From IMG/VR virus record IMGVR_UViG_3300027782_000387, positions 1-22,597 of that record: a DNA stretch of 22,597 nt, one strand, 5' to 3'. The position numbers and the translations under genes were made by a program. The notes beneath the pieces were generated by a model. That model had not been told where the DNA came from. It saw nothing but the letters and a program-made list of their open reading frames with translations, and did not search any database. This DNA is from a virus. The stretch's first letter is position 1. Every line of letters starts with the position of its first letter. Shown here piece after piece: positions 4,776 through 18,094 of this stretch.

Positions 4776-4854
4776 ATCAGCTTTATATTATTTTCTAGTG
4801 AGTGCAATTACAATTGCTATGGTTGTTTTACAGATTGTTCATCCGCAACCGTAA
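4768..4854 (+). CDS. tiny membrane protein, 28 aa
   Basis: MVKSALYYFLVSAITIAMVV followed by LQIVHPQP: one hydrophobic span with a short basic N-terminus and a polar tail. It overlaps the preceding gene by eight bases in the coupled arrangement used throughout this block. Its last 38 bases overlap, tail to tail, the minus-strand gene at 4817-5140. Size alone makes it uncertain. Confidence 0.45.
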   Translation: MVKSALYYFLVSAITIAMVVLQIVHPQP

Positions 4855-5140
4855 ACTCGTCTCCAGCAATTACAAATGCTGTATCGGGATAATACTTCAA
4901 GCAATTATCCTTTAGTTCTTCAATCGTAGCACCTTGGGTTATAAACTTTTTAGTTTCATCTTCCCATAGATATATCAAGCCATCATACAATTCAATTGAA
5001 CATATTACTGTGTTCTTTTGAATTTGGTCTATTGCTGTCTGTAATCTATACTGTAGTATTGCTTGCTTTCTTCTGAAGAAAATAAAGTTCAATAGTATAT
5101 GCACCACAAATGCAAGGATTATAATTTCAAGTATACTCAT
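4817..5140 (-). CDS. membrane-anchored small protein of unknown function, 107 aa
   Basis: One N-terminal membrane span (MSILEIIILAFVVHILLNFI) followed by FFRRKQ, a positive stop that places the C-terminal domain in the cytoplasm. The remaining 80 residues look like a small alpha/beta domain (ICSIELYDGLIYLWEDETK, EELKDNCLKYYPDTAFVIAG). The start is four bases after the stop of the last adhesin gene, so it may be co-transcribed with the late array. Its 3' end overlaps the convergent gene at 4768-4854. Proximity to late genes could suggest a role at the envelope, but nothing in the sequence proves it. Confidence 0.75.
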   Translation of the reverse strand: MSILEIIILAFVVHILLNFIFFRRKQAILQYRLQTAIDQIQKNTVICSIELYDGLIYLWEDETKKFITQGATIEELKDNCLKYYPDTAFVIAGDEFTVADEQSVKQP

Positions 5141-5144
5141 TGGG

Positions 5145-6101
5145 TTAACCGTAGCTTGCGGCTGCTAAACCATATCTAGCAGTACCAACACCAGTTGTAT
5201 CAGTTGCTACAACACCTGTGTTTGATACTAGATTGGTCATTGATAATACGCCGGGGGTACTAAGAGTACCATATCCAAAGATAGCTTTATCGGTACCGTA
5301 ACCTGCGGCAGCTAGCTCTAATCTAGCTGTACCTACACCAGTTGTATCAGTTGCTACAACACCTGTATTTGATACGAGATTGGTCATTGATAACGGAGTA
5401 CCGGAACTATTTTCACCATATCCAAAGATAGCTTTATCGGTACCGTAACCTGCGGCAGCCAAAAAACGTCTTGCAGTACCTACCCCTGTTGTATTTGTAG
5501 CAACTACGCCAGTATTTGATACTAGGTTGGTTATAGATGTGACGTCGTAGCCACCATATCCAAAAATAGCTTTATCAGTTCCATATCCAGCTGCTGCTAA
5601 AACGTATCTAGCAGTACCTACCCCTGTTGTATCTGTAGCAACTGTGCCAGTATTTGATACTTTATTTGTTGTAGATACGTCACCAGCTGCGCTGTTACCA
5701 TATCCAAATATAGCTTTATCAGTACCATAGCCTGCGGCCGCAAGATAGAACCTAGCAGTACCAACCCCTGTAGTATCAGTAGCGACTACTCCTGCATTTG
5801 ATACAAGATTGGTCATTGAAAATTTAGTAGAAGACTCAATCCCATATCCAAATATAGCCTTATCTGTGCCATAACCTGCGGCAGCCAGTCCGTATCTAAT
5901 TTGACCAACACCTGTTGTATCAATGGCAACGATACCTGTATTGGAAACTAGGTTAGTTATTGCAGTGCGAGTATAACTAACAGCCATACCATATCCAAAT
6001 ATAGCTTTATTGCCGCCCGGAGGAGGAGGCAAATCCCATACTGCCATTGTCATATAAGTGCCGGGTGTTCCGCCGCCCATTGATATTCCGCTTATAATCA
6101 T
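5145..6101 (-). CDS. adhesin-like tail protein with a six-repeat kelch-like propeller, 318 aa
   Basis: An N-terminal tag (MIISGISMGGGTPGTYMTM) and a PPPPGG linker precede six tandem repeats of about 48 residues from residue 32 to the end. Each repeat runs KAIFGYG, a variable 6-12-residue loop, TNLVSNTGVVATDTTGVG, (T)AR and LAAAGYGTD. Repeat length and the R...GYG pattern resemble kelch blades. The protein begins with KAIFGYG and ends with R..LAAASYG, so the ends would complete one blade, as in closed beta-propellers. Variation is concentrated in the loop after KAIFGYG and the two residues after AR, a likely binding face. TAAGGA overlaps the previous junction and gives the Shine-Dalgarno. Receptor binding is inferred from context. 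Confidence 0.85.
   Translation of the reverse strand: MIISGISMGGGTPGTYMTMAVWDLPPPPGGNKAIFGYGMAVSYTRTAITNLVSNTGIVAIDTTGVGQIRYGLAAAGYGTDKAIFGYGIESSTKFSMTNLVSNAGVVATDTTGVGTARFYLAAAGYGTDKAIFGYGNSAAGDVSTTNKVSNTGTVATDTTGVGTARYVLAAAGYGTDKAIFGYGGYDVTSITNLVSNTGVVATNTTGVGTARRFLAAAGYGTDKAIFGYGENSSGTPLSMTNLVSNTGVVATDTTGVGTARLELAAAGYGTDKAIFGYGTLSTPGVLSMTNLVSNTGVVATDTTGVGTARYGLAAASYG
5148..6008 (-). repeat. six tandem repeats of about 144 bases coding propeller blades
   Basis: Six in-frame units, each coding KAIFGYG to LAAAGYGTD. Units differ mainly in a short variable loop. The same repeat family occurs at 6125-6994 and 10500-11354, also six times each. Confidence 0.85.
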
Positions 6102-6121
6102 TTTTATTTTTCCTTAGAATG

Positions 6122-7390
6122 TTATGACGAATAACTTGAAGCTGCTAGTTGTTGTCTACCAGTACCTACACCTGTAGTATCTGTAGCCACAGCACCTGTA
6201 TTAGATACTAAATTGGTAATTGAATATTTGGTGCCACCATTATTCTCACCATATCCAAATATTGCTTTATCTGAGCCATATGTCGCGGCCGTTAAATTAA
6301 TTCTTGCAGTACCGACTCCTGTAACATCATTGCCAACAACGCCTGTGTTTGATACTTGATTGGTCATTGACTGAACCGCACCACCATTCCAACCATATCC
6401 AAAAATAGCTTTATCAGTACCATAACCCGCGGCCGCCAAATTCATTCTAGCGGTACCAACGCCTGTAGTATCAGTAGCTACAACCCCGGTGTTACTTACT
6501 CGATTTGTTTTTGTGTATATTCCGTATCCACTGAAATACCCATATCCAAATATTGCTTTATCCGTACCGTAACGGGCGGCCGCCAATCCACGGCTAACAG
6601 AACCAACACCTGTTGTATCTGTAGCAACAACACCTGTGTTTGATACTAGATTTGTCAACGACGTCTCATTAGAATAATTACTATCACACCCATATCCAAA
6701 GATAGCTTTATCAGCACCATAACCTGCGGCTGCTAGTGCCATTCTTGCAGTTCCAACACCAGTCGTATCTGTAGCAACAACACCTGTGTTTGATACTTTG
6801 TTGGTTAGCGATAATGCTGCTGCACTTGTTTTCCCATATCCAAATATTCCTTTATCCGTACCGTACCCGGCGGCTGCTAGGTTCCACCTAGCAGTACCTA
6901 CACCGGCAATATCTGTAGCAACTACGCCCGCGCTTGATACTAAGTTGGTCATCGATAAGTCACTACCATTATATCCATATCCAAATATAGCTTTGTTTCC
7001 TGCAGGAGTTGTACTGGTATCATTGATAGTTAATGACGATGTGGTTGCTACTACTGGACCACTTTCACTACCTGTTCTAATTGATAAGGTAAATGTTTCT
7101 GCACCTTCTGTTGTATCATCTGCCGTCGGTGTTATGGTAAATGAACCAGTATTGTTTGTAATTGAAAATGATCCAGTATTGGCTGCAAAATCTCCAGCAT
7201 TTGAATTTATTGTCCAATAATAAGTACCATTTGGAATAGAGCTTCCGCCTACATTTATAGTTAGAGCACTTCCTTCATTTATATTTGCTGCAGCTGCAGT
7301 TGCAACGTATAACGGAGTACTATCTCCCGTTATCATTGTCATATAAGTGCCGGGTGTTCCACCGCTAATAGATATTCCAGTTATAATCAT
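6122..7390 (-). CDS. adhesin-like tail protein: tag, Calx-beta-like domain, six-repeat propeller, 422 aa
   Basis: Residues 1-20 repeat the shared N-terminal tag. Residues 26-125 are a Calx-beta-like beta-sandwich (INEGSALTINVGG, TTEGAETFTLSIRTG), closely similar to those in the genes at 7403 and 12744. From residue 133 come six kelch-like repeats, more diverged than in the neighbouring gene (KGIFGYG, VGSVSRGLAAARYG, VGNDVTGVG). It is the only protein here joining the Calx-beta-like spacer to a propeller. The stop lies just before a leftover CATTCTAAGGAA, the usual end of neighbouring genes, as if the 3' end had been replaced. Likely role: receptor binding or virion decoration, by inference. 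Confidence 0.85.
   Translation of the reverse strand: MIITGISISGGTPGTYMTMITGDSTPLYVATAAAANINEGSALTINVGGSSIPNGTYYWTINSNAGDFAANTGSFSITNNTGSFTITPTADDTTEGAETFTLSIRTGSESGPVVATTSSLTINDTSTTPAGNKAIFGYGYNGSDLSMTNLVSSAGVVATDIAGVGTARWNLAAAGYGTDKGIFGYGKTSAAALSLTNKVSNTGVVATDTTGVGTARMALAAAGYGADKAIFGYGCDSNYSNETSLTNLVSNTGVVATDTTGVGSVSRGLAAARYGTDKAIFGYGYFSGYGIYTKTNRVSNTGVVATDTTGVGTARMNLAAAGYGTDKAIFGYGWNGGAVQSMTNQVSNTGVVGNDVTGVGTARINLTAATYGSDKAIFGYGENNGGTKYSITNLVSNTGAVATDTTGVGTGRQQLAASSYSS
6125..6994 (-). repeat. six tandem propeller-blade repeats, diverged copy
   Basis: Six units of about 144 bases, same family as 5148-6008. Loop lengths vary, but the number of units is the same. Confidence 0.85.
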
Positions 7391-7402
7391 TTTTGTTTTT
7401 CC

Positions 7403-8647
7403 TTAGAGTGTTAGTGTACCGGAACTTGTGAATGTTAGTACCGTTTTTCCGGGAGCATTCGCGGGAGTTGAAACTGATGCTCCAGGTGCAGACCCTGGAT
7501 ATGCTGGTGTCGGAATTGCAAGCATAACTCTGCCAGAGCCGCCTGCGCCACCTTGCCATGCGGTTGGACTTGGGCTAAAACCCGGACCACCATTACCACC
7601 ACCGCCGCCGCTGCCAGTGTTGGTTGCACCCGCAGCGCCAGCAGTAGCGCCGGCCGGAGACGGATTAGCGCCTGCGCCACCGCCACCTGGACCACCTGCT
7701 CCGCCTGGGCCTGCTACACCTTGTGGGGTCCACATCGATCCGCCACCGCCACCGCCACCTGCAAAAGTAGATCCTGGTGCATAAATTGACCCAGGATAAC
7801 CGGGGCCGCCCGAGCCACCGCCTTCTGGGTGTGTAGGTCCGTATGGAGCAACAGCATCACCACCTGTGCCGCCACCGCCACCGCCACCGCCACCTCCATA
7901 ATAACCATATCCTCCAGGATTTCCCTGTCCGGGTGTTCCTGTTCCGCCTGTAGTCGCATATCCGCCGCCACCACTACCACCAGGCCCACTACCACCATGG
8001 CCACCACCAATTGCTTGTATAGTTGTTAACCCGGATCCTGAAATATTACTATTAAATCCTTTGGTGCCGGTTGTACCAGTAACAGCGCCGCCTGCACCAA
8101 CTAGAATTGTGTATGTTGTTCCAGGATTAAGCGACGTTGTTCCTTCAAATGCTCCGCCAGCACCACCGCCTCCTGCACCATTACCGCCACCGGCAGGGTA
8201 GCCAGCACCACCGCCGCCAATTATTAAATAAGTTACTGAAACTGCTGTAGGTGTTAAACTTGTATCACTTATTGTCAAGGAAGAAGTTGTTGCTACAACA
8301 GTACCACTTGTACTACCTGTTCTAATTGATACCGTAAATGTCTCTGCACCTTCTGTTGTCACATCAGCTAGTGCTGTTACTGTAAATGAACCAGTGTTGT
8401 TTGCAATTGCAAATGAACCCGATACAATATTAGATGTAAAATCTAATGTATTTGATGTGATATTATTTACTGTCCAATAATATGTTCCATCCGGAATATA
8501 ACTACCGGAAACAGTAATAGTTAAATTGCTTCCTTCACTTACATTTGCAGTTGCTGCAGTTGCAATATACAATGGTGTGGGTTCTGCAAGAAATGTCATA
8601 ACAGTGCCAGGTGTTCCCCCGCTAATAGATATTCCGCTTAGAATCAT
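7403..8647 (-). CDS. adhesin-like tail protein: tag, Calx-beta-like domain, glycine-rich tip, 414 aa
   Basis: N-terminal tag MILSGISISGGTPG, then a Calx-beta-like domain at about 25-129 (VSEGSNLTITVSG, TTEGAETFTVSIRTG). A glycine-rich domain follows from 137, opening with VTYLIIGGGGAG and carrying long runs of glycine. The glycine-rich part resembles the phage and environmental glycine-rich domains that open with LVV.GGGGGG, and recalls the polyglycine tips of T-even gp38-type adhesins, though homology is not shown. The C-terminus (TVLTFTSSGTLTL) is a variant of the array's shared SGSITF end. AAGGA with the upstream gene's stop supports the start. Confidence 0.83.
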   Translation of the reverse strand: MILSGISISGGTPGTVMTFLAEPTPLYIATAATANVSEGSNLTITVSGSYIPDGTYYWTVNNITSNTLDFTSNIVSGSFAIANNTGSFTVTALADVTTEGAETFTVSIRTGSTSGTVVATTSSLTISDTSLTPTAVSVTYLIIGGGGAGYPAGGGNGAGGGGAGGAFEGTTSLNPGTTYTILVGAGGAVTGTTGTKGFNSNISGSGLTTIQAIGGGHGGSGPGGSGGGGYATTGGTGTPGQGNPGGYGYYGGGGGGGGGGTGGDAVAPYGPTHPEGGGSGGPGYPGSIYAPGSTFAGGGGGGGSMWTPQGVAGPGGAGGPGGGGAGANPSPAGATAGAAGATNTGSGGGGGNGGPGFSPSPTAWQGGAGGSGRVMLAIPTPAYPGSAPGASVSTPANAPGKTVLTFTSSGTLTL

Positions 8648-8655
8648 TTTTTTCC

Positions 8656-9555
8656 TTAGAATGTTATTGACCCTGATTGCCAGAATCTGTAAATTATGTT
8701 TCCGCCGGATAATATCACATTGGGATTGCCGGTTGTTGCAGTAGCGGTTGCGTATGTGTTTGCATAACTAACAATTACAATGCCAGAACCTCCAGATCCA
8801 CCAACAGAGGCGCTAGAACCATTAGCACCTCCACCGCCACCGCCGGTATTATTAGAACCATTAGTAGAATTTCCAGCACCACCGCCACCATCACCACCTG
8901 CACCTGCAGTACCGCCAGTACTTGCTCGGAAACCACCTCCACCGCCTCCGGCGCGAGTAATGCTTGAACCCGTAACTGAAGATGCTATTCCACTACCGCC
9001 GGCGCCGCCATTTCTGGTGCTGTTTCCATCCGCGCCTACTGTATAAGCACCACCGCCGCCACCACCGCCGTCATCATTAGAAGCACCGCCCCTACTACCC
9101 TGTCCCGCAGTTCCATTTCCGTAGTTGGCTACCCCTATTTTTCTAGCACCACCACCGCCGGCGCCACCACTACCGGCCTGCCCCACATTAAGTCCGCCAG
9201 AATCTTTAGCCGCTCCAAAACCCCCTCCGATTGAGGTTATAGACGAGAATACAGAATCACTCCCTGCAGTGCCACTTCCTGCAGCGGTAGCGCTGCCACC
9301 ATTGCCGCCGGCACCAACAGTTACTGTAATTTCAATTCCCGAAGACACCGCAAAGCCTGTTGCAGTTCTATATCCACCAGCGCCACCGCCACCAGAACCA
9401 ATTTGGTCACCACTAGTACCACCGCCACCCCCACCACCAGCAACTACAAGATATTCTACCGTAGGTGTAACCTGGGTAGAAGGAATATCCTCCCCTGTAG
9501 GCCAAACAGCATATGGGCCGAGGCCCCCACCTATATCTACTCCGCTTATGATCAT
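8656..9555 (-). CDS. adhesin-like tail protein: tag and glycine-rich tip, 299 aa
   Basis: A short tag (MIISGVDIGGGLGPYAVW) leads to a glycine-rich domain opening VEYLVVAGGGGGGG at about residue 33. The body has repeated GGGGGG and GGAGG runs and ends with GIVIVSYANTYATATATTG and FWQSGSITF. There is no spacer domain. The GIV-xx-Y strand before a short beta-rich end is shared with most glycine-rich members here. The ATG overlaps the stop of the upstream coiled-coil gene as ATGA, unlike other array junctions. Function as a receptor-binding tip is inferred. Confidence 0.83.
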   Translation of the reverse strand: MIISGVDIGGGLGPYAVWPTGEDIPSTQVTPTVEYLVVAGGGGGGGTSGDQIGSGGGGAGGYRTATGFAVSSGIEITVTVGAGGNGGSATAAGSGTAGSDSVFSSITSIGGGFGAAKDSGGLNVGQAGSGGAGGGGARKIGVANYGNGTAGQGSRGGASNDDGGGGGGGAYTVGADGNSTRNGGAGGSGIASSVTGSSITRAGGGGGGFRASTGGTAGAGGDGGGGAGNSTNGSNNTGGGGGGANGSSASVGGSGGSGIVIVSYANTYATATATTGNPNVILSGGNIIYRFWQSGSITF

Positions 9556-10217
9556 TTTTTCTTTTTCTTTATGGATACCACTGTAGATGGTTTCTCTTGT
9601 TTTGTTTCAAGTGCGGGTGTTGTCTGATTAGAAAGTTGTAGCATAATATCTTTCTGCTCTAACAATACTGTTTCTTTAGGAACAAGTCCAACCATCTTAA
9701 GTGCTTCTAGTGTTTGTGGATTACTCATTGCATTAAGTAGCTTAGCAGGGCTAGGTCTACCCATTGCAATGATTTCGGATTGTATCTCACGACCAACCAT
9801 AACAGTAAACTCATAATTGGCATTGGCCTCAAACATCTCATCATCTGTATATGGCGTACCATCTTCATGCTTTAATCTAGTTGGTTCTACCTCAGCATAG
9901 ATCTCTGCCATAATCTTTTCAAGTATTTTAATCTCTTTACGGTTAAGATCAAACGCATGCTTTTGATCGTCCAAATGAGATTCCAACTCAATAATTTCAG
10001 CTTGCAGATTAAGAATAATATGTGGCAACGCCGGTACTGTTTTAAGGTGCTTTAGTTCTTCAAGTTTTGCTTGATACTTTAGTGCTGCTACTTCTTCAAG
10101 TACTGCTGCTCTGTTTCTTCCAACTAAAAACCCCTGTAGTGTTTTTAATTTTTCCCACGGTGTGTTACCAATAACTTGATAACGATAATTAAATTCTGAA
10201 TTTAGATTTGAAGCCAT
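9552..10217 (-). CDS. coiled-coil phage protein inside the adhesin array, 221 aa
   Basis: A soluble helical protein. Residues 20-50 are basic (LKTLQGFLVGRNRAAVLEEV); residues 55-115 form a probable coiled coil (ILNLQAEIIELESHLDDQ, LNRKEIKILEKIMAEIYAE). Then comes a conserved-looking IQSEIIAMGRPSPAKLLNAM segment, and the protein ends in a run of lysines. It has none of the adhesin modules. It has its own late promoter (10248-10255) and GAGGA Shine-Dalgarno. Its position between adhesins suggests a tail-fibre assembly chaperone or an anchor protein, but this is inference. The stop overlaps the next gene. Confidence 0.78.
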   Translation of the reverse strand: MASNLNSEFNYRYQVIGNTPWEKLKTLQGFLVGRNRAAVLEEVAALKYQAKLEELKHLKTVPALPHIILNLQAEIIELESHLDDQKHAFDLNRKEIKILEKIMAEIYAEVEPTRLKHEDGTPYTDDEMFEANANYEFTVMVGREIQSEIIAMGRPSPAKLLNAMSNPQTLEALKMVGLVPKETVLLEQKDIMLQLSNQTTPALETKQEKPSTVVSIKKKKK

Positions 10218-10247
10218 AATGATTCCTCATAACGATGTTTAAAATTA

Positions 10248-10255
10248 TATTTATA
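10248..10255 (-). promoter_or_regulatory. T4-type late promoter core for the coiled-coil gene
   Basis: TATAAATA on the minus strand, in the 47-base gap upstream of the 9552-10217 gene. A start near 10242 leaves a 25-base leader with GAGGA. This octamer is the T4 late promoter -10 element; no -35 box is expected. Confidence 0.65.
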
Positions 10256-10264
10256 GGTTGAGAT

Positions 10265-10474
10265 TTACTCTCTAGGATAATCTGGGAATGGAACCCAGCT
10301 TACTGTAGCATCATCCCATAGGTATGGAAAGCCATCAGTTGGAGGAGCAACAGGCGCAACATATGTAGTTGCTGCCTCATCCCATGTCCATGAAGCTGGA
10401 TGCTCTGCATTAAATGCGTTTTCTCTTGCTTGTGCAATTTCCTCAGCTGTTGGAGGAGTTGTGTTTTCTATCAT
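10265..10474 (-). CDS. small W-rich protein within the adhesin array, 69 aa
   Basis: MIENTTPPTAEEIAQAREN is followed by two similar W-x-WD motifs: SWTWDEAATTYVAP (29-42) and YLWDDATVSWVPF (51-63). The tandem motif with Pro spacers suggests two copies of a short beta hairpin. It starts at 10474 with AAGGAAAAC upstream, the same signal used by the adhesins. Small proteins with repeated WDE motifs occur in marine T4-type phages without an assigned role, from memory. It could be a tail assembly factor. Confidence 0.7.
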   Translation of the reverse strand: MIENTTPPTAEEIAQARENAFNAEHPASWTWDEAATTYVAPVAPPTDGFPYLWDDATVSWVPFPDYPRE

Positions 10475-10496
10475 TTTGTTTTCCTTTTTAAAAAAT

Positions 10497-11447
10497 TTAT
10501 GTTGTTGAATATCCGGCTGCCGCCAAAGTGTATCTAGCAGTACCCACACCTGTTGTGTCGGTAGCAACAACACCTGTATTATTTACTAAGTTTGTCATTG
10601 ATAAGCTACCGCTAATATACCCATATCCAAATATTGCTTTATCAGTACCATATCCAGCGGCAGCAAGATATTGTCTAGCAGTACCAACGCCTGTTGTGTC
10701 GGTAGCAACAACACCTGTGTTTGATACTACGTTGGTTACGGATGTATTTGACCCAGCATTTCCGTATCCAAAAATAGCTTTATCAGTGCCATAACCAGCG
10801 GCTGCTAGACCTTGTCTAGCAGTACCAACCCCAGTAGTATCTGTGGCCACTACTCCGGTGTTTGATACTAAATTAGTCAGGGAATACAAAGTAGGACTGT
10901 TAAATCCATATCCAAAAATAGCTTTGTCTGTCCCGTAACCTGCGGCGGCTAGCCCATTTCTAACAGTACCGACACCAGTTGTATCAGTAGCTACAACACC
11001 GGTGTTTGACACTAGGTTAGTAACTGCAGTATTAGCAGGAACAGTATTATATCCATATCCAAAAATAGCTTTATCAGTGCCATAACCAGCGGCCGCTAAT
11101 AATTGTCTAGCAGTACCGACACCAGTTGTGTCAGTAGCTACTACTCCAGTATTTGATACTAGGTTGGTTATTGCTGTATTTGTGCCGGTAGTTCCATATC
11201 CAAAAATAGCTTTATCAGTGCCATAACCTGCGGCCGCTAAATAATATCTAGCAGTGCCAACGCCAGTTGTGTCAGTAGCTACTACTCCAGTATTTGATAC
11301 TAGGTTGGTTATTGAAGAACCACTATTACCATATCCATACCCAAATATAGCTTTTGTAGTGCTAGTGGCCGCGGCAGGCGCATCCCCCATATCCCAACCA
11401 ACGTATGGGCCGGCACCGCTAATTATATTTACTCCGTCTACTATCAT
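10497..11447 (-). CDS. adhesin-like tail protein with a six-repeat kelch-like propeller, 316 aa
   Basis: Residues 1-20 are a variant tag (MIVDGVNIISGAGPYVGWDM). Six repeats start at residue 32, the same position as in the 5145-6101 protein, and run to the end. Their loops differ from those of the other two propellers (GTTGTNTA, YNTVPANTA, FNSPTLYS). The last unit has NNTG in place of SNTG. The start at 11447 is set by AAGGAAAAC; a longer frame to 11510 would run into the previous gene. Six copies again, with the open blade split between the two ends, support a closed six-bladed propeller. Confidence 0.85.
   Translation of the reverse strand: MIVDGVNIISGAGPYVGWDMGDAPAAATSTTKAIFGYGYGNSGSSITNLVSNTGVVATDTTGVGTARYYLAAAGYGTDKAIFGYGTTGTNTAITNLVSNTGVVATDTTGVGTARQLLAAAGYGTDKAIFGYGYNTVPANTAVTNLVSNTGVVATDTTGVGTVRNGLAAAGYGTDKAIFGYGFNSPTLYSLTNLVSNTGVVATDTTGVGTARQGLAAAGYGTDKAIFGYGNAGSNTSVTNVVSNTGVVATDTTGVGTARQYLAAAGYGTDKAIFGYGYISGSLSMTNLVNNTGVVATDTTGVGTARYTLAAAGYSTT
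10500..11354 (-). repeat. six tandem propeller-blade repeats, third copy
   Basis: Six units of about 144 bases coding KAIFGYG to LAAAGYGTD, same family as 5148-6008 and 6125-6994. Confidence 0.85.
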
Positions 11448-11457
11448 TTTGTTTTCC

Positions 11458-12732
11458 TTAGAATGTGATTGAACCAGATGAAGTCCATTTGTATACTCTA
11501 TCCGCGCCATCTATCAGAGGATATCCTGGAGCTACTCCGGTTGTCGAACTAGCAGCACCTATTGCAGTAGGATATCTCATTATTACAACACCGCCACCAC
11601 CAGCGCCACCTGATTTGGCAACTCGGCTACCAGACGGTGCATTACCATTGTAAAGTGCACCACCTCCGCCACCGCCTGTACCCGGACCGCCTGCACTGCC
11701 GTCTGCACCAACCCACATATTTCCGTCATTACCGCCAGCGCCGCCACCACCTTGTCCACCACCGCCACCGCTAGAGGCCCATGAACCACCGCCGCCACCG
11801 CCTCCATAGTATGTAGCCGAACTAGTTGGCCATTCTATACCTGGGCCACCTGGGCCACCGTATCCACTACTACCTGTACTGCCTGCGCCGCCAGCACCAC
11901 CGCCACCCCCGCCACCACAATAATTATTGGCGCCGGGTGCTGTTTGATTACCACCGTCATACCCTTGTCTTGGTCCTGGATTATACGGAGATCCTGGGTA
12001 TACACCTTTACCGCCAGTATAATTTTTATTATATGCACTATCACCTGCACCGCCGCCTGAGCCCCCATTTCCTCCAGGCCAGCCGCTATTGTCACCGAGA
12101 CCGCCAGAACCGCCACCATATGTAGTTATAGTTGTTAAACCTGTTGCAGAAACTGTACTCTGAGCACCTGAACTACCTGCTCCAGAAGGCGGCCCGCCAC
12201 CTCCACCTCCACCGATTGAAATTGTATGAGCTACGCCAAAACTTGCATTAATAGTTCCAGTTAATGCGCCACCCGCACCACCGCCACCAGCTGCAACATA
12301 CCCGTTATAATTGCCTGAACCGCCGCCACCACCACCGCCTGCAACTACCAAATATGATACTGTTACACTTAAAGCGCTTGTAGTAGTACTATTACTTGGT
12401 GCACTTGCCGCACTTGTTCCTGCTGAATTTGTAGCAGTCACTGTAAATGTATAACTGGTACTTTGTGTTAATCCTGTGACACTAATAGTACCAGATCCTG
12501 CTTGATTTAGTGTGGCCGTAACATTTCCCGGAGTACTTGTTGCGGTATATGATGTAATGGTTGCGCCTCCATCATTAATCGGTGCAGTGAATGTGACATT
12601 AGCTGTTGTAGCACCCGTAGCAGTTGCTGTACCTATTGTAGGTGGTGCTGGAATTTTTTTCGGCTCTCCCATTGACCAACTAACGAATGCGCCAGGTGTT
12701 CCGCCACCTATGTTTACTCCGCTTATTAACAT
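11458..12732 (-). CDS. adhesin-like tail protein: tag, FN3 domain, glycine-rich tip, 424 aa
   Basis: Tag MLISGVNIGGGTPGAFVSW, then an FN3-type domain at about 28-118 (ANVTFTAPINDGGATITSY, STSYTFTVTATNSAG). A large glycine-rich domain follows from about 127 (VSYLVVAGGGGGGG). Inside it lies the shared insert GGKGVYPGSPYNPGPRQGYD and the strand GGPGIEWPTSSATYY. The end is VVIMRYP... YKWTSSGSITF. FN3 domains in phage tails commonly act as spacers. TAAGGA junctions flank it on both sides. Confidence 0.85.
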   Translation of the reverse strand: MLISGVNIGGGTPGAFVSWSMGEPKKIPAPPTIGTATATGATTANVTFTAPINDGGATITSYTATSTPGNVTATLNQAGSGTISVTGLTQSTSYTFTVTATNSAGTSAASAPSNSTTTSALSVTVSYLVVAGGGGGGGSGNYNGYVAAGGGGAGGALTGTINASFGVAHTISIGGGGGGGPPSGAGSSGAQSTVSATGLTTITTYGGGSGGLGDNSGWPGGNGGSGGGAGDSAYNKNYTGGKGVYPGSPYNPGPRQGYDGGNQTAPGANNYCGGGGGGGAGGAGSTGSSGYGGPGGPGIEWPTSSATYYGGGGGGGSWASSGGGGGQGGGGAGGNDGNMWVGADGSAGGPGTGGGGGGALYNGNAPSGSRVAKSGGAGGGGVVIMRYPTAIGAASSTTGVAPGYPLIDGADRVYKWTSSGSITF

Positions 12733-12743
12733 TTTGTTATTCC

Positions 12744-14063
12744 TTAGAATGTAATTGAGCCAGATGAATTAAAGGTATAATTTCTATATCCCGCTGCCAC
12801 CACTACAACGGGTGTGCCTACTGTATTTGAAGCAGCTGCATATGAATCAGGATATCTAATAACTACAATGCCTGGACCGCCAGTGCCACCACTAAAAGAT
12901 CCATATGGTTGAGGAGCAGCAACTCCGGCGCCACCTCCACCTCCGCCTGTATTAGTAGTACCAGGAGTTCCTACCCCATTGCCCGGCCCGTTTCCAGGGC
13001 CACCACCACCTTGGCCACCACCACCACCACCTGCATAACCAACGCCATAGTTGGAGAAGGAGCCACCGCCACCCCCACCCGCATAGTATACAGCTGAACC
13101 AGTTGGCCATTCTATACCTGGGCCACCTGAACCACCATAATTGAAACCATAACTACCTGCGCCACCAGCTCCACCACCGCCACCTCCGCCATACCCTGTA
13201 TAGCTAGGAGTGCCCGAGGGAGGAGAATCATTGCCACCATCATATCCTTGTCTTGGCCCTGGGTTATACGGAGATCCTGGATATACACCTTTACCGCCAG
13301 AGTAAATTCTGTTATAGTTAAATGCTGGGCCCATACCGCCTCCAGATCCACCATCGCCACCTGCTGTGCCTGCTGTTTGGTTTCCTCCACCACCAGCTCC
13401 CCCACCGTACGCATATATTGTTGTTAATCCTGTTGCAGTAATACTACTTGCGGTACCTTGGTATCCTGTACCAGTGGGACTTGGATTGCCTGCGCCACCT
13501 GCGCCTCCGGTACCAACTGTTACTGTAAATGCCACACCCGGCGATGCATTGATATTGCCAGATAATAGGCCACCTGCGCCCCCACCTCCAGAAGCGCTAT
13601 ATTGGTTAGCGTTTGATCTTCCACCACCGCCTCCACCGCCAGCAACGACCAAATATTCAAACGGGGTAACTACAGGAGTTGTACTCGTATCACTTATAGT
13701 TAATGAAGAAGTTGTTGCTACAACAGTACCACTTGTGCTGCCTGTTCTAATTGATAAGGTGAATGTTTCTGCACCCTCAGTTGTCAAATCAGCAGTAGGC
13801 AGTATGTTAAATGATCCTGAATTATTTGCAATTGCAAATGATCCAGTGTTTGCTGTAAAATCTCCAGCATTTGAATTTATTGTCCAATAATACGTATTAT
13901 CGGGAATTCTACTACCGCTGACACTAATAGTTAAATTGCTTCCTTCGCTTACATTTGCAGTTGCTGCAGATATAATGTATAAAGGATTATTATCAACAAG
14001 CCCCATTGTAAATTGTCCGCCTGGGCTTGTCCAACCGCCCATGTTTACTCCGCTTATTATCAT
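12744..14063 (-). CDS. adhesin-like tail protein: tag, Calx-beta-like domain, glycine-rich tip, 439 aa
   Basis: Tag MIISGVNMGGWTSPGGQF, a Calx-beta-like domain at about 27-128 (VSEGSNLTISVSG, TTEGAETFTLSIRTG) and a glycine-rich tip from about 135. The tip contains the shared GGKGVYPGSPYNPGPRQGYD insert and GGPGIEWPTGSAVYY, and ends GIVVIRYPDSYAAASNT then FNSSGSITF. The tip is closest to that of the FN3-bearing 11458 gene while the spacer is closest to that of the 7403 gene, a mosaic pattern. Likely receptor-binding or decoration role by inference. Confidence 0.85.
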   Translation of the reverse strand: MIISGVNMGGWTSPGGQFTMGLVDNNPLYIISAATANVSEGSNLTISVSGSRIPDNTYYWTINSNAGDFTANTGSFAIANNSGSFNILPTADLTTEGAETFTLSIRTGSTSGTVVATTSSLTISDTSTTPVVTPFEYLVVAGGGGGGGRSNANQYSASGGGGAGGLLSGNINASPGVAFTVTVGTGGAGGAGNPSPTGTGYQGTASSITATGLTTIYAYGGGAGGGGNQTAGTAGGDGGSGGGMGPAFNYNRIYSGGKGVYPGSPYNPGPRQGYDGGNDSPPSGTPSYTGYGGGGGGGAGGAGSYGFNYGGSGGPGIEWPTGSAVYYAGGGGGGSFSNYGVGYAGGGGGGQGGGGPGNGPGNGVGTPGTTNTGGGGGGAGVAAPQPYGSFSGGTGGPGIVVIRYPDSYAAASNTVGTPVVVVAAGYRNYTFNSSGSITF

Positions 14064-14072
14064 TTCTTTTCC

Positions 14073-15092
14073 TTAGAATGTGATTGTGCCTGGACTAATC
14101 CATCTGTATACTCGGTAACCCCCAGCTGTTGTTATAGTAACAGAACCTGTTGTATTCGATGCGGCTGCATATGAATCAGGATATTGTATTGCGGCTACAC
14201 CAGGATTAGCGGCCTGGCCGGTACTATACGGTGTTGCTGAACCCCAATCAGTACCAATATTATTCCAAGAGGAAGAATTCCAATCTCTTTGACCACCTGC
14301 GCCACCGGCTCCGCCAGCAATGTTTGTGCCGATTGTTGTAGAGCCAGATCCTCCGCCACCGCCTCCCCCGCTAAATGTCCCAGGACTCCCTGCACCACCT
14401 GGAGCATAATAGCCACCCACACCCCCTGTACCGCCTGTTGCAGTATTTCCGTCTCCTACTGCGCCCCCGCCGCCGGCAAAACCGGGCCAGCCTGGATCAT
14501 TTGGGTTATTATTTGAAGCAGCGCCACCGCCACCACCATATGCAGTTCTAGTGAAACCTGTACCAACTAACATAGTAGATGCGCCGCTTGAAGTGCCAAC
14601 TGTTACAGTCAATCCGGTAGTAATATTTGTACTGCCATATGAAGCCCCACCAGATCCGCCGCCGCCGCCATAACTACGGCCTGGCCCACCCGATGCTCCA
14701 CTTGCACCAACGACCAAATATGTTATAGGAATTGTAGCTGAAGCTGTAGTAGTACTATTACTTGATTCACTTGCTGCACTAGTACCAACTGAATTTGTGG
14801 CAGTAACTGTAAATGTGTAACTTGTACTTGCGGTTAATCCGGTTACTGTAATAGTACCAGACCCTGCTTGATTTAATGTACCTGTGATTCCACCTGGACT
14901 ACTTGTTGCAGTATATGACGTAATATTTGCACCACCGTTATTAGTCGGTGCAGTAAATGTTACGTTTGCAGTTGTAGCACCTGTAGCAGTTGCTGTACCT
15001 ATTGTGGGTGGCGCTGGAATTTTTATAGGTTCTGCCAACCCCATTACAAATGCTGGGCCACCGCCGCCAAAATTTACTCCGCTTATTATCAT
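14073..15092 (-). CDS. adhesin-like tail protein: tag, FN3 domain, glycine-rich tip, 339 aa
   Basis: Tag MIISGVNFGGGGPAFVMG, then an FN3-type domain at about 24-115, near-identical in places to that of the 11458 gene (PAPPTIGTATATGATTANVT). A shorter glycine-rich tip follows, opening ITYLVVGASGASGG, where several glycines are replaced by serine and alanine. The end YPDSYAAASNTTG then YRVYRWISPGTITF matches the 12744 gene. The start is preceded by AAGGAATATC. Confidence 0.84.
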   Translation of the reverse strand: MIISGVNFGGGGPAFVMGLAEPIKIPAPPTIGTATATGATTANVTFTAPTNNGGANITSYTATSSPGGITGTLNQAGSGTITVTGLTASTSYTFTVTATNSVGTSAASESSNSTTTASATIPITYLVVGASGASGGPGRSYGGGGGSGGASYGSTNITTGLTVTVGTSSGASTMLVGTGFTRTAYGGGGGAASNNNPNDPGWPGFAGGGGAVGDGNTATGGTGGVGGYYAPGGAGSPGTFSGGGGGGGSGSTTIGTNIAGGAGGAGGQRDWNSSSWNNIGTDWGSATPYSTGQAANPGVAAIQYPDSYAAASNTTGSVTITTAGGYRVYRWISPGTITF

Positions 15093-15102
15093 TTGATATT
15101 CC

Positions 15103-16110
15103 TTATACGTTTGCTGTATTGGTGTTTGGATAAGATCTATTCACACCCCATATAATACGAACTGCGCCGTTTACGCCTGGGGCGCCTGTGGAGCCGCCGC
15201 CAAATCTGGTTCCATATCCACCGCCGGTACCGCCTCCTCCATATCCAGTGGGAGAAGTAGGATCGGCCGAACCAGCACCCCCTATGGTTCCTGTGCCTGG
15301 GCTAGGCGAAGGGTACGTTGCCCCAGAACCACCGGTGCCACCTGTTCCATTTGTGCCAAGGCCGTAAATACCAACGCCACCACCTTTACCACTATCGCTG
15401 CCAATAAATCTACCATCGTCATATTGATAATCTCCGGCTCCGCCACCACCACCACCACCGCCACCTGTGCTGTTGGCCCCTGTTGCTCCATTTGCGGGTG
15501 CTGAATTACGATTACCAGATCTGCCGCCATCGCCACCGGGAGCAGTATACCCACCGGCACCACCGCCACCACCGCAAGACTTGCCATCTGTAAAACCACC
15601 ATATGAACCCAAGTTAGTGAACCCTGTGCCTGCAGTACCACCGTTGCCGCCACCATCACCAACGTATCCTCCGCCAGCACCCCCTGCAGTAGGGCCCGCT
15701 GGATAGTTATTGCCTGCAGTGCCGCCTACGCCGCTAACAGTAGGGGCTCCTATGAAATATGATGTGCCTCCAGAACTAGGAGACGGTTGACTAAGACCTG
15801 CTGCGCCAACAACAACTGTGTAAGGAGATCCTGGTGTTACAGGAATATTATTTTTCCAACCTAGACCACCTCCCCCGCCAGATGAACCTCCAGGTGCAGA
15901 AGGTGCCGCCGGCCATGCACCGCCACCACCGCCGCCACCGACTGCAACAACTGATACTGAGGTTGTGCCAACAGGAGCAACCCATGAATATGTACCAGCA
16001 GTTAAAAATTCTGATTGACCACTAGGTGGAATAGGCGCGGCCGACAATGTAAATGTCAATGGTGTCCCTGTTCCTGGTCCAGGTAATACTGTAACGTTAT
16101 TTATTATCAT
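15103..16110 (-). CDS. adhesin-like tail protein with glycine-rich tip, 335 aa
   Basis: A different tag type (MIINNVTVLPGPGTGTPLTF) shared with the 16121 gene. A short AGTYSWVAPVGTTSVSVVAV lead-in opens a glycine-rich domain with several GGGGGGG runs. The end GAVRIIWGVNRSYPNTNTANV differs from the SGSITF end of the other members; a RIIWG...S-P-NT end is, from memory, common in glycine-rich proteins of marine T4-type phages. It may represent the ancestral, non-shuffled version. The single-Cys site KSCGGG is unusual in this array. Confidence 0.82.
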   Translation of the reverse strand: MIINNVTVLPGPGTGTPLTFTLSAAPIPPSGQSEFLTAGTYSWVAPVGTTSVSVVAVGGGGGGGAWPAAPSAPGGSSGGGGGLGWKNNIPVTPGSPYTVVVGAAGLSQPSPSSGGTSYFIGAPTVSGVGGTAGNNYPAGPTAGGAGGGYVGDGGGNGGTAGTGFTNLGSYGGFTDGKSCGGGGGAGGYTAPGGDGGRSGNRNSAPANGATGANSTGGGGGGGGGAGDYQYDDGRFIGSDSGKGGGVGIYGLGTNGTGGTGGSGATYPSPSPGTGTIGGAGSADPTSPTGYGGGGTGGGYGTRFGGGSTGAPGVNGAVRIIWGVNRSYPNTNTANV

Positions 16111-16120
16111 TTGCTATTCC

Positions 16121-16912
16121 TTAGAATGTGATTGAGCCTGAACTAGTAAATACGTATCTCCTATAACCGCCAGATACTGTATAGTTAGGGCTTCCTGTTG
16201 TAGTTGTTGCTGCAGGATAAGTGTCTCCGTATCTAATGACTACAATTCCGTTACCTGAATTGCCCGCTCCTACATTATATAATCCAGATCCCCCGTCACC
16301 GTAATTACCCGATCCTGTTAATGCTCCAACCGGCGGCCCGCTGTAGTATGTACTACCATTTGATCCAGGCCCACCTGAACAATAAGTGTAGCTAGTACCA
16401 GTTATATCATTGGATACACCTGGGCCTCCAGTAAGCCCGGAACCTGCCCCGCCTGCACCGCCGCCACTTCCATATCCTCCTGCAGATCCACCATCATATC
16501 CTTGTCTAGGTGCGTCTATATAAGTAGATCCTGGATATACACCTTTAGCTCCTGCACCGCCAGATCCTCCGTTGGCGCCGGTTAAACCATTTCCACCTTT
16601 GCCGCCACCATATGAAGTTAAACCAAATGCACTGGAATTTGTACCATTTACATTATAACCACCGCCTGCGCCAATTGTAATAGTATATTGTGTTCCGAGA
16701 GTTGGAGTAAATTTACTACTACCTATGGTAGTTAGATATCCACCTGCGCCTGCGCCACCACCGCCAATGTCTCCTCTACCGCCACCACCGCCGCCGGCTA
16801 CTATAAGATAATCAATTGACAATGGCGGTGGAACATAATTATCTGCCAATGTAAACCTAAGAGGTGTTCCTGAACCCGTAAACCCTGATAATGTAACGTT
16901 TTCTACTATCAT
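16121..16912 (-). CDS. adhesin-like tail protein with glycine-rich tip, 263 aa
   Basis: Tag MIVENVTLSGFTGSGTPLRF, paired in type with the 15103 gene. A glycine-rich domain opens IDYLIVAGGGGGGRG and carries the insert GAKGVYPGSTYIDAPRQGYD. The end GIVVIRYGDTYPAATTTTG then YVFTSSGSITF matches the main group. So it combines the second tag type with the common C-terminal end. The shortest of the glycine-rich members. Confidence 0.83.
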   Translation of the reverse strand: MIVENVTLSGFTGSGTPLRFTLADNYVPPPLSIDYLIVAGGGGGGRGDIGGGGAGAGGYLTTIGSSKFTPTLGTQYTITIGAGGGYNVNGTNSSAFGLTSYGGGKGGNGLTGANGGSGGAGAKGVYPGSTYIDAPRQGYDGGSAGGYGSGGGAGGAGSGLTGGPGVSNDITGTSYTYCSGGPGSNGSTYYSGPPVGALTGSGNYGDGGSGLYNVGAGNSGNGIVVIRYGDTYPAATTTTGSPNYTVSGGYRRYVFTSSGSITF

Positions 16913-16932
16913 TTATGTTTCCTTAGAATAGT

Positions 16933-17661
16933 TTAATATCCAAATCTTGTTTTATACTTAGCATGTTCTTCTTGTATTTGTGCTAAGGATAATTCTTTAT
17001 CCCATACTTTAACGAATCCTACATCAGCATCTACTCCTTCAGAAATAGAAGTAGGGGATGCATATCTACCAAATAATCTCAATCCATTAAAGCCGCTATT
17101 AAAGTTATCAGTACCATTTGTAGTAGATGGTGCTGTACCGGTAGCTATATAACTTTTAGATTTCTCAGCATCTGTTGTTCCCGTAGAAGTAAACCATATG
17201 AAGTGCCAATTGGTATCTGCTACAGTATCGGTTGGTCCTATAAATCCCTCAGTGAATGCAATATTCATACGAGCTGTACCTGAACCCCATAATCCCATTA
17301 AGAAATCAGGAGAATCTGAATTAGCATTAAGTAATCTACCTGGGGTAGTTCCATTCCATTTATATGCCATGCCAACAGTATATGCCTGTGCACCGCCACT
17401 ATAATTAGGACCGAATGCCAAGAAGTTTGTGTTGCTTGCAGTAGTTACTCTAAACACACCACCATTTACACTATTCCAGCTAATGTTATTTCCAGGATTT
17501 GCCACACTAATAGCATATGCGCCTGTGCCAGCTACTATATTTCCATCTGTAGGTACTGCTGAGTAATATGCTGCATCAAAATCTATAACAGGTAGTAACG
17601 GTGGAGGAGTAGTGATAATTTTCATTCCACCTAATAATTGCAAGCCATCTAATATTCGCAT
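16933..17661 (-). CDS. LamG-like lectin-fold tail protein, 242 aa
   Basis: MRILDGLQLLGGMKIITTPPP is a third tag type, followed by a concanavalin A-like (LamG) domain at about 27-235. Typical strands are NWHFIWFTSTG, GLRLFGRY and the closing VDADVGFVKVWDKELSLAQI followed by EEH..YKTRFGY. Such domains bind sugars or proteins in many phage tail adhesins. It is the first adhesin gene in transcription order. Its start lies one base after the stop of the GIY-YIG gene with AAAGG upstream, so both share the late promoter at 18087-18094. A leftover TATTCTAAGGAA lies after its stop. Confidence 0.85.
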   Translation of the reverse strand: MRILDGLQLLGGMKIITTPPPLLPVIDFDAAYYSAVPTDGNIVAGTGAYAISVANPGNNISWNSVNGGVFRVTTASNTNFLAFGPNYSGGAQAYTVGMAYKWNGTTPGRLLNANSDSPDFLMGLWGSGTARMNIAFTEGFIGPTDTVADTNWHFIWFTSTGTTDAEKSKSYIATGTAPSTTNGTDNFNSGFNGLRLFGRYASPTSISEGVDADVGFVKVWDKELSLAQIQEEHAKYKTRFGY

Positions 17662-17662
17662 C

Positions 17663-18064
17663 TTATGCCTTTAAATTCTTGATATGGGTTTTATGAACAC
17701 GGCATTGCACCTGGCCGTTGTAATAATCTTCTGTCTCTAAAACTCGTCTATCCATTTGTTCTCTTGCTTCTAAATAATTGCACAACCCCTTGTTAGGGCA
17801 TATATGCAGTATTTCTCGTATAAAACTATCTGCGCCGTGTTTTTCCACATCAGCTTTAACTTCATCAGATGAAGACCAATAATCTCTCCAATCTGACTCA
17901 ACTTTTAATCGTTTCTTCTTGCCCTTAACAACCTTTGTCCTACGAAACCAAAACAACTTTTTACCTATATACTTCCGATTCGTGGCAGTATTAGTAATCA
18001 AGTACACATAACCATAAGCTTCTTCTGGAACAGTTTCTAAGGGCTTTTCTTTATAAATCCACAT
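17663..18064 (-). CDS. GIY-YIG family nuclease at the head of the adhesin array, 133 aa
   Basis: GYVYLITN (residues 18-25) and KYIGKK (31-36) are the two signature strands. ESDWRDYWSSSDEVK supplies the conserved aromatic and serine region, E99 or E102 in YLEAREQM is the likely metal ligand, and YYNGQ (114-118) closes the domain. Compared with T4 Seg and I-TevI proteins, it is the catalytic domain without an obvious DNA-binding extension. The ATG at 18064 has only a weak GGT Shine-Dalgarno inside an 11-bp hairpin that also contains the late promoter. It is followed without a gap by the LamG gene. DNA target unknown. Confidence 0.82.
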   Translation of the reverse strand: MWIYKEKPLETVPEEAYGYVYLITNTATNRKYIGKKLFWFRRTKVVKGKKKRLKVESDWRDYWSSSDEVKADVEKHGADSFIREILHICPNKGLCNYLEAREQMDRRVLETEDYYNGQVQCRVHKTHIKNLKA

Positions 18065-18065
18065 C

Positions 18066-18092
18066 TAAATACCAATATTAAATTAGTATTTA
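18066..18092 (-). promoter_or_regulatory. start-site hairpin, probable translational switch
   Basis: On the minus strand TAAATACTAAT (18092-18082) pairs with ATTGGTATTTA (18076-18066) over 11 positions with one G-U pair and a 5-base loop. The right arm includes the GGT ribosome site, and the ATG at 18064 is one base beyond the stem. The left arm includes most of the late promoter. Late transcripts would start in the loop near 18081 and lack the left arm, so only read-through transcripts would be blocked. Confidence 0.6.
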
Positions 18093-18094
18093 TA
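18087..18094 (-). promoter_or_regulatory. T4-type late promoter core for the GIY-YIG and adhesin genes
   Basis: TATAAATA on the minus strand; it overlaps the TAA stop of the upstream zinc-finger gene (18090-18092). Predicted start about 18081, giving a 17-base leader for the GIY-YIG gene. It is the only late promoter seen upstream of the LamG to 10497 adhesins. Confidence 0.7.

Follow-up and report, generated by a model that had tools for sequence, protein, structure and literature searches.

Eleven modular adhesin-like genes with short N-terminal tags in an uncultured virus: a probable operon of exchangeable tail adhesins

The window analysed here, meaning the whole stretch of DNA of one virus record (IMG/VR IMGVR_UViG_3300027782_000387; 22,597 nucleotides, 22.6 kb), carries between positions 5145 and 17661 an array of eleven intact minus-strand genes (G1 to G11), each starting with a short N-terminal tag. 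A preliminary description of this DNA had reported the eleven tagged genes as a tandem series; the open reading frame (ORF) list and a read-out of the tags bore out the genes and their location, but not their contiguity, as two untagged genes (X1 and X2) interrupt the series. Gene calls were simple ORF choices, and the start of the fifth gene, which is present as described, was corrected from the mechanical ORF start at 11510 to 11447. Behind the tag there is either no spacer, an Ig-like spacer or an FN3 domain, and then a tip that is a six-repeat propeller, a glycine-rich domain or a LamG-type domain. The array is edged by a SegE-type GIY-YIG endonuclease gene on one side and by a gene for a 107-amino-acid (aa) protein on the other:

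17663–18064, minus strand: SegE-type GIY-YIG endonuclease gene (PF19835, E 8.5e-38), the conserved upstream edge of the island
16933–17661, minus strand: G11, tag MRILDGLQLLGGM and LamG-like (ConA-like lectin) tip; it opens the array next to the SegE-type nuclease gene
16121–16912, minus strand: G10, tag MIVENVTLSGF and glycine-rich tip (PF21722, E 2e-13)
15103–16110, minus strand: G9, tag MIINNVTVLPG and a second type of glycine-rich tip, ending ...TNTANV (phrog_4474, E 6e-37)
14073–15092, minus strand: G8, tag MIISGVNFGGG, FN3 (fn3, E 1.1e-9) and glycine-rich tip
12744–14063, minus strand: G7, tag MIISGVNMGGW, Ig-like spacer and glycine-rich tip (PF21722, E 2e-11)
11458–12732, minus strand: G6, tag MLISGVNIGGG, FN3 (fn3, E 1.6e-10) and glycine-rich tip (PF21722, E 1.6e-9)
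10497–11447, minus strand: G5, tag MIVDGVNIISG and six-repeat propeller resembling Photorhabdus PHL/PLL lectins, no spacer
10265–10474, minus strand: X2, untagged, Trp-rich, 69 aa, like the C-terminal part of phrog_7759
9552–10217, minus strand: X1, untagged, all-helical, 221 aa, propeller-linked in relatives
8656–9555, minus strand: G4, tag MIISGVDIGGG and glycine-rich tip (PF21722, E 8e-24), no spacer
7403–8647, minus strand: G3, tag MILSGISISGG, Ig-like spacer and glycine-rich tip (PF21722, above cut-off)
6122–7390, minus strand: G2, tag MIITGISISGG, Ig-like spacer and six-repeat propeller
5145–6101, minus strand: G1, tag MIISGISMGGG and six-repeat propeller, no spacer
4817–5140, minus strand: 107-aa protein with a hydrophobic N-terminus, presumed to sit in a membrane; it forms the island's downstream edge

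The six propeller repeats of G1, G2 and G5, and the FN3 domains of G6 and G8 (by Pfam), were found as the preliminary description had them. Its glycine-rich tips matched PF21722 (Gly_rich_2) above the cut-off in G3, G4, G6, G7, G9 and G10, whereas that of G8 is glycine-rich by composition and has no PF21722 match. The spacer it had called Calx-beta yielded only weak Ig- or cadherin-like matches in Pfam and the PDB, and is here renamed an Ig-like spacer. The LamG tip of G11 gave no direct Pfam match, but homologues at the same island position match Laminin_G_3 (slightly below the cut-off in L166, E 3e-5, and L175, E 1e-4; above it in L180 and L182, which are more distant). A Pfam match to 'YscJ' in G1 was discarded as a sub-threshold chance match.

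That the modules are combined differently from gene to gene, as first proposed, was borne out by module identities, by module-specific synonymous divergence (dS) and by a direct swap of tips in relatives. The tags of G1 and G2 show 87% DNA identity, though only G2 has a spacer; the FN3 domains of G6 and G8 are 85% identical at the aa level, their tips just 51%; G6 and G7 have tips with 65% identity behind unrelated spacers; and G2 and G3 share an Ig-like spacer (75% identity) in front of unrelated tips. When dS was used as a clock (values above 1 being rough), the spacers of G6 and G8 gave 0.68 and their tips 1.67, while those of G3 and G7 gave 0.55 and 1.35, the contrary order appearing in 1 of 2000 codon bootstraps for either pair. 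Since whole-gene duplication predicts a single age per pair, spacer and tip have had separate histories within these genes. The tips are old paralogues (dS 1.05–2.4, with one pair saturated). Neighbouring genes are joined by a conserved block, ATTCTAAGGAA, that covers the last codons, the stop codon and the ribosome-binding site (RBS) (for example at 11454–11464, minus strand, by sequence match). This block is exact at seven junctions (11454, 6110, 8652, 12740, 14069, 16117 and 16919), has one mismatch at an eighth (7399), and encodes ...TF-stop in most of the glycine-rich genes. It is retained behind the stop codon after the G2 propeller and the G11 LamG-like tip, which looks like a relic of exchange within the block. 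Module exchange is thus supported.

Using the SegE-type nuclease gene as a search handle, many contigs with a shared gene order were recovered. In the nearest relatives (L159 and L160), X1, X2, two propellers and the genes at either edge are shared with the window, and there are four clear tagged genes. By counts that rest on contigs, often fragments, the island holds two tagged genes in L163–L165, L167–L169, L184 and L186, three in L171 and L180, at least five in L194 and L199, six in L192 and L196, and none or one in some others, so that the eleven of the window are the maximum seen (relatives, 0–6). The orthologue of G11 is the first gene of L163, with 82–90% DNA identity over the tag and the first half of the tip. 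Between relatives L163 and L167, identity is 92–100% across the greater part of the nuclease gene and on into the tag MRLSGLELLGGM, after which it falls to ∼35%; the tip behind this shared tag is LamG-like in L163 and glycine-rich in L167. The reverse case was found between L163 and L165, in which differing tags precede similar LamG-like tips. A tip has therefore been swapped behind a constant tag at an orthologous position. The tag-plus-tip architecture recurs in dozens of independent contigs, and is accordingly not a product of chance. Among relatives (tag class being assigned by pattern), the tags (MIISGV.., MQITNV.., MSITITGGITLNGG.., MDIGAGITFGAG..) combine alternating hydrophobic residues with Gly-Gly, and a Pro-rich linker follows in many; this short-tag class carries the propeller, two glycine-rich types, LamG, RCC1 and another kelch-like tip.

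The propeller repeats are 43–53 aa long (mostly 47–49). Over 351 of them, most scaffold columns were near-invariant (entropy <1 bit), while two patches were hypervariable (2.4–3.8 bits), namely the dyad within GTAR-xx-L and the loop that follows GYG; the length of this loop varies as well, and the 17 loops read from G1, G2 and G5 are all different. The possibility that these loops are the target of a diversity-generating retroelement was rejected: a crude motif scan returned no reverse transcriptase-like ORF, and the loops vary in length. Several blades are covered by the match to the PHL/PLL lectins of Photorhabdus (E 4.6e-7 with a single sequence, 1.2e-5 with a profile). For the glycine-rich tips, the near-invariant columns of the A3 alignment are mostly Gly, with variable segments between the motifs and a mean identity of 31%. 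A profile of these tips found the Pam3 tail fibre as its sole PDB matches (E 0.048); the glycine-rich domain of that fibre has been proposed to recognise the receptor (PMC9608196). The lectin similarity, the weak tail-fibre similarity and the hypervariable patches support the term adhesin-like used in the preliminary description; such features are signatures of binding surfaces, short of proving adhesion. In a separate record of 524565 bases (G004; L032, L047, L092, L109 and L156), 17 propeller genes lie in several clusters, along with two copies of X1. This record was left out when genes per phage were counted since, despite a single terminase match, it may be composite.

One relative, G001 (202.7 kb), has a T4-type terminase and a SegE-type island with two tagged genes. 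Elsewhere it bears a second array (L240, L241 and L242) of ∼16 genes, whose tag has the form MFTFQNLSxxGNF, whose tips are mostly glycine-rich, and which adjoins a 2406-aa fibre-sized gene; sheath-, tube- and portal-like genes of G001 were recognised by eye. In this one genome, the record ends of which are unproven, each array has a single tag type, which fits the idea that tags act as addresses. These results are consistent with the array being an operon of tail adhesins in a phage of the T4 superfamily, in which proteins dock via the tag, tips bind glycans and modules recombine, and we regard this as the probable explanation. Each protein would dock through its hydrophobic, Gly-containing tag of 12–20 residues at one common virion site, which is most likely to be a protein of a tail fibre or of the baseplate; the optional Ig-like and FN3 spacers would set the reach, and the lectin-like propeller, polyglycine and ConA-like tips would bind differing surface glycans. 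Homologous recombination at the near-identical tag and stop/RBS blocks, and at spacers, may swap spacers and tips and alter the number of genes.

Several points weigh against this explanation. The window itself contains no tail genes (the T4-type terminase, sheath and neck genes are not in it), and no known anchor or docking partner for the tags was seen there. Incorporation into virions, a site on the tail rather than the head, docking by the tag, glycans as ligands, and simultaneous display are steps that we infer. The structure model of the propeller was poor (predicted local distance difference test score, pLDDT, 52; template modelling score, TM, ∼0.17 to propellers), although its Foldseek matches were nearly all propellers, at low TM, and the similarity to Pam3 is marginal. 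The tree of the glycine-rich tips, a check proposed at the outset, showed 16 changes of tag class (minimum, 2; shuffled mean, 22), but monophyly of the tips by tag class, with a single QN-tag clade, survived an approximately unbiased (AU) test (p 0.066), and this comparison was dropped as evidence of exchange.

A virion that addresses several receptors, one of the two possibilities first raised, would be plausible. As a more speculative extension, which we put forward tentatively, eleven to twenty adhesins might compete for the same docking sites; particles would then be mosaics whose random mixes hedge host range without a genetic switch, and differing arrays of one genome (those with the sGG tag and those with the QN tag) might address differing sites on the virion.

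A different role for the same proteins would be as Hoc-like decorations of the head or shaft, their Ig-like, FN3 and lectin-like domains binding mucus, particles or cell surfaces non-specifically and so aiding encounter, instead of carrying out receptor binding itself. Phage decoration proteins typically carry Ig-like and FN3 domains, the window is without a tail gene, and in a relative some of the flanking structural families are labelled head and packaging. However, the folds that the tips match are those of phage tail fibres and lectins. Elsewhere among phages, these tips are joined to very different N-termini, including fibre-like proteins of more than 700 aa, and the propellers occur both on such long proteins and near tail and neck genes; in the nearest relative, moreover, the island lies ∼11 kb past a block of virion and tail-fibre genes. 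We therefore consider a decorating role unlikely.

Slightly less likely still is a silent form of the other possibility raised at first (a reservoir for receptor switching by recombination), in which one or two genes would produce the working adhesin and the others would remain as silent or lowly expressed cassettes that donate sequence. Recombination could take place at the conserved blocks between genes and in the tag DNA, and swaps of the kind seen between L163 and L167 do happen over evolutionary time, so exchange of tips on that timescale is supported. A silent store, in contrast, is disfavoured. Every tagged gene has its own start and an AGGAA-type RBS (weaker in G4 and G11), intergenic spacing is 4–22 bp (the exceptions being 47 bp before X1 and a 4-bp overlap after it), and no broken copies were found. 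In addition, homologous tips and spacers gave ratios of nonsynonymous to synonymous divergence (dN/dS) of 0.11–0.46, with tip dS mostly near saturation; values below 1 indicate that the copies are held under purifying selection, which speaks against silent cassettes. It is very improbable that the array is an artefact in which the assembler strung together one or two genes in their variants from several strains: this is a metagenome contig with conserved junctions, and its gene order was not found in a second contig, but the longest exact repeat is 52 bp and lies inside one gene, repeats between genes are no longer than 36 bp, and independent long contigs hold arrays of 6 and ∼16 tagged genes.

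With regard to the untagged genes, X1 gave a good all-helical model (pLDDT 85), for which no match was found in the PDB. Relatives found in viral contigs numbered 331; the 80 best loci, which were retained, contain 49 distinct X1 genes, and 31 of these have a propeller gene directly upstream, for which reason X1 probably serves propeller tips, as a chaperone or connector. In L088, X1, X2 and propellers lie beside tail, neck and baseplate genes, and relatives in the phrog_7759 family have a longer N-terminal part and are located near fibre genes. A TAAATA core lies upstream of 22 of 48 X1 relatives, compared with 10% of other genes; several genes of the X1 family also have a CTCTATA..TATAGAG inverted repeat right before the start codon. 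In the window, a T4-type late-promoter core occurs twice in placements that are suggestive only, its count there being not above chance:

10248–10255, minus strand: TATAAATA, upstream of X1, within the 47-bp spacing
18087–18094, minus strand: TATAAATA, upstream of the SegE-type gene

The SegE-type nuclease at the island edge could promote exchange. A second GIY-YIG-like ORF in the window lies outside the array on the plus strand (2197–2553). Within the tagged-gene islands of L184, L186, L189, L192, L196, L197, L199 and L200, a gene of 213–216 aa (MKKTIAIFVKHPECSLDS.. type) recurs. The G+C content of the array is 46.6%, against 37–38% in its flanks, and scans of the window for Rfam families and tRNAs were empty.

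Large sets of receptor-binding proteins (RBPs) have been described: Klebsiella phages phiK64-1 and phiKp24 have eleven and fourteen putative RBPs, respectively, and short N-terminal peptides in phiK64-1/RaK2 and phiKp24 are thought to dock secondary RBPs on an anchor fibre (PMC6872550, PMC9700779). The earlier remark that one adhesin or a few per phage is the usual number thus overstated the novelty of the array, all the more so as larger arrays occur in near relatives. The likeness to these systems lies in the many RBPs per phage (5–14 in theirs), the short conserved N-terminal peptides and the horizontal swapping of genes; a shared short peptide of this kind is found on eleven putative RBPs in the window and on ∼16 in G001. 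However, theirs are large beta-helical depolymerases, while the array, in which Pfam found no depolymerase (beta-helix) domain, has lectin or polyglycine tips in proteins of 240–440 aa on a tag of 12–20 residues, with optional spacers reassorted. T-even gp38 and Pam3 gp24, which have a role in host range in cultured viruses (gp38 in the context of the T4 superfamily), likewise carry a polyglycine tip in which variable segments lie among conserved Gly motifs, but they attach through an N-terminal helical domain and are described as one gene per phage, whereas here there are many copies on a short tag (PMC8651126, PMC9608196). The Pfam scan of the array returned PF21722 and not the gp38 model, and the tag leaves no room for the gp38-type helical domain that attaches to gp37. 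The Photorhabdus PLL/PHL lectins resemble the G1, G2 and G5 tips in being multi-site propellers with similarity across the repeats, but have seven blades and stack sugars on Trp, while the array, in a phage context, has six repeats and a consensus without that Trp (PMC6943638). In haloarchaeal hafunaviruses, a glycine-rich adhesin in a hypervariable region, followed by a small gene, correlates with host range, but one adhesin per virus is described, with no reassortment of tags or spacers (PMC8651126). Because the gp38 profile and N-terminal domain, the depolymerase domains and the PLL blade number are all lacking, the array appears to work like the multi-adhesin Klebsiella and glycine-rich adhesin systems while being a member of none.

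Neither megablast with the entire window as query nor tblastn with G4, G5, G11, X1 and X2 returned a match among isolate phages, and G2 gave weak partial matches only; a degenerate DNA pattern of tag plus RBS matched no other viral contig. Multi-adhesin phages with docking peptides are already known; what the array adds is a large natural set of exchangeable tips on a very short common peptide, in uncultured T4-like phages and with tips that have no close match in isolates. The tip swaps in relatives suggest a plug-in system for altering what the virus adheres to. If this is true, how a phage maintains many adhesins, how tags address proteins to the virion, and whether clone-mates differ in the receptors they use would become testable.

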